Assembly (NCBI GenBank): GCA_030431755.1
Contig: JAUIIK010000034.1
Coordinates: forward strand, 1 to 41,627
From: Chloroflexia bacterium
GTDB taxonomy: Bacteria > Chloroflexota > Chloroflexia > Thermomicrobiales > CFX8
Direction of reading: 5' to 3'
Length of the DNA: 41,627 nucleotides
Part shown: piece after piece, positions 19,395-21,388 of the stretch
Layout of the letters: every line of letters starts with the position of its first letter
Numbering within the stretch: the stretch's first letter is position 1
Position numbers and translations under genes: made by a program
Notes under the pieces: model-generated
What the model was told of the DNA's origin: nothing
Seen by the model: the letters and a program-made list of their open reading frames with translations, nothing else
The model's database searches: none

Positions 19395-20147
19395 ATGTCC
19401 AGGAATAATCGTCGTCAGGCTCGCGAGAATCGCGCCCAGAGCCGCCGCGCCCAACGGGTGATCGAAGCACAACAAGCCAAACGCCGGCGTATGCTCACGA
19501 TCATCGGCAGCGTTGTTGGTGGCGCGGTCGTCATTGCCGGCCTGCTCTTCCTCTTTAGCAGAGAGCCCGAACCAGCCGCGGCCGACGAACCGGTCAGTTC
19601 AGCGCCGTCGCCGGCCATCGAAGTTGAGACCGACGGACGCTTCAAAGGCAATCCGGACGCGCCCGTCAGGGTCGTCGAGTTTGGGGATTTCCAGTGACCA
19701 GGCTGCGGTCAGTTCGCCCGTGTGGTCGAACCTCAACTCGTTCGGGATTTTGTTGCTACCGGTCAGGTCTATTTCGAGTACCGCGACTATGCCTTCCTCG
19801 GCGATGAGTCAGGTGAAGCAGCCGAAGCTGCCTGGTGCGCCAACGACCAGGGCATGTTCTGGGAGATGCATGACGCGATCTTCTACAACCAGGTCGGCGA
19901 GAACGATGGCGCATTCGCGCGCAGCCGGCTCAACCGCATTGCCGAGACCGTCGCAGGCCTCGACATGGATGCCTGGGGCAGCTGTATGGATGACAATACC
20001 CACGAGGACACCGTCGAAGATGCAACGCGCGAAGCGCAGCAAGCAGGTGTCCAAGGCACACCGTCGTTCCTCGTAGACGGCCAGCTGATGTTTGGCGCGA
20101 GCTACGAAGAGCTCAGCGCGGCGATCCAAGAAGCGCTCGGAAGCTAG
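19395..20147 (+). CDS. DsbA-like thiol oxidoreductase, probable selenoprotein (UGA at active-site Cys)
   Basis: 250 residues from ATG 19395 (AAGGGA upstream), reading through TGA 19695-19697 as residue 101. A basic N-terminus is followed by a membrane anchor (about 33-54), then a DsbA/thioredoxin_4 domain facing outward. The active site reads VVEFGDFQ-U-PGC-GQF, so UGA replaces the first Cys of C-P-x-C and C104 is the second. The cis-Pro motif GTPSFLVDG (P223) and cysteines 148 and 197 are also present. After the UGA the frame is perfectly conserved to the stop at 20145. A GU-looped hairpin at 19712-19731 fits a bacterial SECIS. VKOR, a known DsbA partner, is the next gene. The alternative is a nonsense mutation, but its exact position and the hairpin argue against that. 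Confidence 0.85.
19712..19731 (+). promoter_or_regulatory. Candidate bacterial SECIS hairpin
   Basis: GTTCG (19712-19716) pairs perfectly with CGAAC (19727-19731). Inside, C-C pairs with G-G and one C/U mismatch or bulged U remains, closing a GTGT loop at 19720-19723. The loop starts about 22 nt after the UGA and opens with G-U. This fits the known rules for SelB-binding elements: apical loop within about 16-37 nt and a G among the first loop bases. Folded by eye only. Confidence 0.65.
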
Positions 20148-20184: not shown

Positions 20185-20709
20185 ATGTCAGAGACTCATG
20201 CCGGCCAGCTAGACGCGGCTTATCCTGCAGACGGCAACCAGCGGCGCTGGTCCGGTCTTCTCTCTCTCACCGGGCTGGTGCTGGCCCTGAGCATCATCGG
20301 CGCGGGCATCTCCGGTTACCTGACCTATGTGCACTTTGACGACAGCGTGCTAGTCTGCTCGGCCAGCGGCGGCTGCCATACCGTGCAGGAGAGCGACTAC
20401 GCGACCATCGGCCCGGTCCCGATCGCGCTGCTGGGCCTGGGCATGTTTCTGACGCTTGCAGCCATTTCCGGCGCACGCGCGCTACGGCTTGGCATCATCA
20501 GCGACGACACCGCCACGATGGCGATCTGGGGCATGACGCTCACCGGCCTGCTCTACTACGCCTATCTCGTCTACGTCGAGTTGTTCGTCCTCGAAGCGAT
20601 CTGCCAGTGGTGTGTCGCGACGACGGCGATCACCGTCGCGATCTTCGCCATCGAGTCCTATCGCCTGCGCGATGCGCTGTCGATTGATGAAGATGCGCTG
20701 ATTGACTGA
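20185..20709 (+). CDS. Vitamin K epoxide reductase (VKOR) family protein
   Basis: 174 residues from ATG 20185 (GGAG upstream). Bacterial VKORs are four- or five-helix membrane enzymes that take electrons from DsbA-like proteins and pass them to quinone, so they replace DsbB. The C140-x-x-C143 redox centre (ICQWC) and the outer loop cysteines C58 and C64 (CSASGGC) are present, with helices near 25-45, 74-95, 110-130 and 134-156. It lies 37 bp after the DsbA-like gene and ends next to the DtxR-family start, forming one operon. It very likely reoxidises the preceding DsbA-like protein. No selenocysteine is seen here. Confidence 0.92.
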   Translation: MSETHAGQLDAAYPADGNQRRWSGLLSLTGLVLALSIIGAGISGYLTYVHFDDSVLVCSASGGCHTVQESDYATIGPVPIALLGLGMFLTLAAISGARALRLGIISDDTATMAIWGMTLTGLLYYAYLVYVELFVLEAICQWCVATTAITVAIFAIESYRLRDALSIDEDALID

Positions 20710-20713
20710 GCCG

Positions 20714-21388
20714 ATGACGACGATCACTCCAGCAATGGAGGACTATCTCAAGACGATCTTCAGCCTCGAAGAGTCCGGCGACAAGATCACGACCCAGGCG
20801 ATTGCCGACCAGCTCAAGGTCGCCGCCCCGTCAGTGACCGGCATGGTCAAACGGCTGCACGACCTGAACCTCGTCGACCATGCGCCCTACCGGGGCGTCA
20901 CCCTGACCCCCGCCGGACGCAAGATCGCCCTCGAAGTCGTCCGCCATCACCGCCTGCTCGAACTCTATCTGGCCGACGCGCTCGGCTACTCCTGGGACGA
21001 AGTCCACGAGGAAGCCGACCGGCTGGAGCACACGATCTCGGAGGAGTTCGAGGCCCGCATCGACCACGCGCTCGGCTATCCGACCCACGACCCCCACGGC
21101 GACCCGATCCCGACACTAGGCGGCGACCTGCCGATTGCCCGGCACCAGCGCCTGAGCGACCTTGAGGATGGCCAGGAGGCCATCGTCGTGCGGATTTTCC
21201 ACGATGACAGCGAACGCCTGCGCTATCTCGGGCAGCTCGGGCTCTACCCCAACTCGGCGCTGACGGTGGTCGAGAAGCTGCCATTCAATGGGCCTTTGCG
21301 TATCCGCGTCGACGACGAGGACCACGTCATCGGGCTCGACCTCGCGTCGGATGTCTACATCGAGGTGGTCGAGCCGGCGCACGAGTAG
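20714..21388 (+). CDS. DtxR/MntR-family metal-dependent transcriptional regulator
   Basis: 224 residues from ATG 20714, 4 bp after the VKOR stop; TTG 20702 is a possible earlier start that would overlap VKOR. The N-terminal winged helix (EDYLKTIFSLEES, then ITTQAIADQLKVAAPSVTGMVKRLHDLNLVDHAPYRGVTLT) is typical. The dimerisation and metal-binding domain contains VVRHHRLLELYLADALGYSWDEVHEEADRLEH with conserved His and Glu ligands. A C-terminal SH3-like FeoA domain (about 145-220) completes the long form. Family members sense Fe(II) or Mn(II). Its place after DsbA and VKOR suggests cotranscription; targets are unknown. Confidence 0.9.
   Translation: MTTITPAMEDYLKTIFSLEESGDKITTQAIADQLKVAAPSVTGMVKRLHDLNLVDHAPYRGVTLTPAGRKIALEVVRHHRLLELYLADALGYSWDEVHEEADRLEHTISEEFEARIDHALGYPTHDPHGDPIPTLGGDLPIARHQRLSDLEDGQEAIVVRIFHDDSERLRYLGQLGLYPNSALTVVEKLPFNGPLRIRVDDEDHVIGLDLASDVYIEVVEPAHE

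Follow-up and report, generated by a model that had tools for sequence, protein, structure and literature searches.

Selenoproteins of the DsbA-like kind, with selenocysteine (Sec) opening a UxxC redox motif, were already known when this locus was found, as the first-pass annotation of this DNA had said. Members of PF01323 with such a motif are described, in the relevant passages of two sources, from the Sargasso Sea and from Sec-decoding bacteria (PMC1088965, PMC1794560), and DsbA-like UxxC selenoproteins are also tabulated in PMC5029168. The NCBIfam family NF041057 (Rcas_1661 family thioredoxin-like (seleno)lipoprotein) is listed as a "DsbG-like protein" of UxxC type (PMC13188914). The DsbA of Mycobacterium tuberculosis (Rv2969c), whose gene adjoins one for VKOR, is an oxidase and binds VKOR peptides (PMC3792642). 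Our literature search found no paper joining selenocysteine, DsbA and VKOR, and none naming Rcas_1661. Here we describe a gene from a Chloroflexia bacterium, lying in a 41,627-nucleotide stretch of DNA (the window). We are highly confident that it encodes a membrane-anchored, outward-facing thiol oxidoreductase of the DsbA/BdbD type that has Sec in place of the first active-site Cys, with the neighbouring VKOR as its probable reoxidant.

The gene occupies positions 19395..20147 of the forward strand and specifies 250 aa if its UGA is read as Sec. Its frame runs from the ATG at 19395, which is preceded by GGAAGG, to the TAG at 20145-20147, and contains a single in-frame UGA at 19695-19697. The first-pass annotation placed this codon at the first Cys of a CPxC motif, followed by an undamaged frame of 149 codons and a cis-proline motif, and all three points hold. 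The alignment of homologues puts the UGA at the first residue of a U-P-G-C redox motif (Sec101, with Cys104 as its partner). The 149 codons between the TGA and the TAG are open, and two Pfam domains span the UGA in the read-through protein: Thioredoxin_4 (E 1e-31, residues 81-245) and DSBA (7e-16). The G-T-P cis-proline motif (20055..20063, forward strand), which we take to be part of the thioredoxin-fold active site, includes T222 and P223, both invariant in an alignment of 26 proteins. A crude scan of the window counts about 90 TGAs flanked on each side by at least 50 open codons, and among these only the one at 19695-19697 was seen at the CxxC position of a recognised domain. Standard gene callers break this gene up and so lose the redox centre.

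The AlphaFold model of the protein (pLDDT 90) has a thioredoxin fold with an inserted helical domain, and it carries the UxxC and cis-Pro elements of DsbA/BdbD-like proteins. Its best matches in the PDB are BdbD (3eu4) and the DsbA of Corynebacterium diphtheriae. A hydrophobic helix near the N terminus, at about residues 34-55, is the predicted membrane anchor; residues 1-100 contain no Cys, and hence no lipobox. The first-pass annotation also proposed an anchor, but its suggestion that an anchored version is unusual does not hold, as the closest solved fold is that of BdbD, and export or anchoring is proposed for M. tuberculosis DsbA too (PMC3792642).

Homologues were surveyed in 61 genomes of the order. 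The UGA form occurs in nine of them, that is, in the window genome and eight others. Only Cys or UGA was found at this position, both among the 23 aligned Cys homologues of the order and across all 115 aligned sequences, where the active-site column holds UGA 12 times, TGC or TGT 103 times, and nothing else. One UGA-containing homologue, in G018, is 51% identical to the window protein. The window genome itself has two paralogues, each with UGA at the equal position: L018:17-874 (minus strand, contig C179; 51% identical) and L019:1450-2130 (contig C5; 40% identical). One of the two (P0002) has a lipobox-like VVAC and a UPGC motif, and the other has a UPHC motif and a weak hairpin. Neither these paralogues nor the VKOR gene downstream of the window gene appear in the earlier annotation. 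A more distant DsbA-like protein from a groundwater Chloroflexi MAG (L114:1272) has its UGA in UPGC, with a different hairpin. A further candidate carrier, G017, was rejected: it has a Cys codon at the active site, and the TGA first noticed there falls outside the motif. The idea that the UGA is a true premature stop or a miscalled TGC or TGT draws on the fragmented assembly (272 contigs) and on the TGC or TGT found at this site in most homologues, but it can effectively be excluded on sequence grounds, because the UGA recurs independently at the equal codon in two paralogues and eight other genomes, the sequence after it is conserved together with a hairpin that Cys forms lack, and the genome holds the whole Sec machinery.

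The first-pass annotation had proposed a search for selA, selB, selC and selD, and all four are present in the window genome (5.1 Mb, 97% complete). The tRNA-Sec has the anticodon UCA and scores 78 bits (L001, contig C206); SelA scores 506 bits, SelB (632 aa) 318 bits, and SelD (L150:2734-3669, minus strand) 363 bits. At codon 11 of its matched stretch, close to the N terminus, SelD has one in-frame UGA, so it is likely a selenoprotein itself. The genes for tRNA-Sec, SelA, SelB and SelD each lie on a separate contig, none of them beside the window gene. Each of the nine UGA-form genomes of the order has SelA, which in G021 is divided between two contigs, and seven of them have a tRNA-Sec scoring at least 60 bits; no such tRNA was found in G021 or in G039, the latter 75% complete.

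Downstream of the UGA, within the coding sequence, lies a hairpin of bacterial SECIS type, GUUCGCC-CGUGU-GGUCGAAC (19712..19731, forward strand), whose apical G is 23 nt 3′ of the UGA. The first-pass annotation had described such a hairpin. Its existence is borne out but its pairing is not, since the outermost C-U of the proposed CCC-GUGU-GGU is no base pair. The structure has a stem of 5 bp plus 2 bp interrupted by this C-U mismatch and a GUGU loop (−6.6 kcal/mol); an alternative with a bulged U and a CGUGU loop is about equally good (−5.9 kcal/mol). Folding the 51-nt stretch 19690-19740 in isolation, as had been suggested, lends the hairpin no support, because a rival fold in which the UGA itself is base-paired is preferred there (z −0.86). 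If the 11 nt that directly follow the UGA are omitted, the SECIS hairpin becomes the minimum-energy fold, at −7.6 kcal/mol. We compared hairpins by folding positions +12 to +40 after the UGA, on our own reasoning that the ribosome would cover the beginning. Published limits for bacterial SECIS elements are a loop of 3-9 nt, an upper stem of 4-16 bp, a G in the first two loop positions, a distance of 16-37 nt from the UGA, and a minimum free energy of at most −7.5 kcal/mol (PMC13188914). The window hairpin conforms to these rules, as had been claimed: its loop is 4-5 nt with G first or second, it lies 21-22 nt from the UGA, its stem of 7 bp contains a single mismatch or bulge, and its energy of −7.6 kcal/mol is close to the limit.

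A consensus hairpin, UUCRCC-CGUGN-GGYGAA, occurs at the equal position in ten Sec forms of the UPxC type, with its loop 21-22 nt after the UGA; the weakest of the ten is that of the paralogue L019 (−3.6 kcal/mol). This type of hairpin was absent from all 16 Cys homologues folded, and the hairpins of L140 and L114, two Sec forms that are more distant, are of another form. Hairpin energies differ between Sec forms and Cys relatives of the order (p = 1.4e-4), and where the loop encodes Arg, the codon used is CGT in nine of nine Sec forms against none of five Cys forms (Fisher p = 5e-4; CGT makes up 15% of Arg codons in the window genes), although both p values are optimistic because the sequences compared share ancestry. 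Between the window gene and paralogue L018, whose proteins are about 50% identical, 25 identical bases run through the hairpin. One stem pair alternates among A-U, G-U and G-C. Covariation is slight, with one pair changed on both sides, and is matched by 80 of 500 shuffles. A covariance model trained on seven foreign Sec forms recovers the window (44.6 bits, E 2e-12), but it mostly reflects sequence kinship, because the Cys homologue L048 (28.8 bits) outscores the Sec paralogue L149 (26.7 bits). An Rfam scan of the window returned no matches.

It is very improbable that the UGA is instead read as Trp or Cys, or passed by general read-through of stops. We found nothing specific in favor of such a reading, and it is opposed by the presence of tRNA-Sec, SelA, SelB and a SelD that has an in-frame UGA too, by the absence of Trp from the UGA column among homologues, and by the SECIS-form hairpin after the codon. 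The DsbA-like protein thus almost certainly has Sec in its active site, as judged from these sequences. In the mechanism that we envisage, SelB and Sec-tRNA-Sec would bind the hairpin and Sec would be inserted at the UGA.

Immediately downstream, a gene at 20185..20709 (forward strand) encodes a VKOR-family membrane protein of 174 aa (Pfam VKOR, E 2e-24). The DsbA-VKOR adjacency is conserved: two Sec forms (L030 and L056) and 18 Cys relatives share it with the window. VKOR is likely the reoxidant of the DsbA-like protein. Overlapping the 3′ end of the VKOR gene is a DtxR/IdeR-type metal-dependent repressor with a FeoA domain (20702..21388, forward strand), an arrangement that may place the operon under metal-dependent control; among the other fetched loci, such a repressor stands beside the pair only in L037. 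VKOR was not seen next to the paralogues L018 (which ends at a contig edge) and L019, the Sec forms of genus g16, or L139.

A better-surviving alternative, which we nonetheless consider unlikely, is that the selenoprotein acts as a reductase or isomerase of the DsbC/DsbG kind, or in defense against peroxide or metals, rather than as an oxidase driven by VKOR. In its favor, selenols usually make the better reductants. Several Sec paralogues, in genus g16 and at L139, have no adjoining VKOR, the DsbA-VKOR pair is followed by a DtxR-type repressor, and a 2026 review names NF041057 "DsbG-like" (PMC13188914). Against this, many genomes of the order retain the DsbA-VKOR pair in both Sec and Cys forms, and the predicted fold is nearest to BdbD and DsbA. 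The conservation of the pair in both kinds of relative makes extracytoplasmic disulfide formation a likely role, and the adjacent VKOR, the BdbD/DsbA-like model and the M. tuberculosis pair together favor a VKOR-recycled disulfide oxidase. We infer the oxidative direction of catalysis, as opposed to isomerization or reduction, from gene linkage and fold. In such an oxidase, an oxidized U101-C104 selenenylsulfide would hand its bond to exported proteins, and the adjoining VKOR would reoxidize the reduced protein and pass the electrons to quinone.

The history of the active site was traced on a phylogeny built with the Sec column masked. Mapped onto this tree, the Sec and Cys labels need seven changes, and well-supported branches force at least three of these. 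An AU test rejects the grouping of the ten close forms into one Sec clade (p = 6.5e-4). Genus g15 contains both states: L030 has Sec, whereas L031 and L033 have Cys, lack the hairpin, and come from genomes that retain tRNA-Sec. The shared form of the hairpin suggests either an ancient Sec state followed by repeated loss, or transfer. The recoding site, the hairpin in the coding region, the complete machinery, the alternation of Sec and Cys, and the linkage to VKOR are all evident in the sequences themselves. Beyond these, we lean modestly toward a broader interpretation, in which the Sec-containing DsbA would be a dedicated VKOR partner that brings selenium into de novo extracytoplasmic disulfide formation, Sec and Cys having been interchanged several times at a syntenic locus, even within a genus, while the host keeps its Sec machinery.

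Because one gene pair has both Sec and Cys orthologues, in part within one genus, it amounts to a natural experiment on why a cell bears the cost of selenium in an enzyme of oxidative folding, and the same set bears on the gain and loss of SECIS elements within coding sequence. Here a Sec-containing DsbA stands beside the protein that probably accepts its electrons, and among close relatives selenium and sulfur have been swapped repeatedly.

It is useful to contrast this protein with its known relatives. The DsbA-like UxxC selenoproteins of PF01323 likewise combine a thioredoxin fold with a bacterial SECIS; compared by their descriptions, the parts of those sources that cover them do not report VKOR linkage (PMC1088965, PMC1794560). 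NF041057 is the nearest named family: it shares the fold family, likewise starts its redox motif with UGA or Cys, and is found in the same phylum. However, the window protein scores 136.9 bits against its model, below the curated cut-off of 190, and so falls outside it; the Sec members that we fetched from the phylum read U-[TSG]-x-C rather than U-P-G-C, and NF041057 is a lipoprotein family, whereas the window protein has a transmembrane anchor without a lipobox. BdbD of Bacillus subtilis, the best structural match, has Cys where the window protein has Sec, and the M. tuberculosis pair shows the same VKOR adjacency but with a catalytic Cys (PMC3792642). Since DsbA-like UxxC selenoproteins are known, and given the NF041057 score and motif, the window protein belongs to a UPxC subgroup within a known kind of selenoprotein and not to a new kind. 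What is new here is that this subgroup is VKOR-linked and has switched between Sec and Cys repeatedly, even inside one genus.
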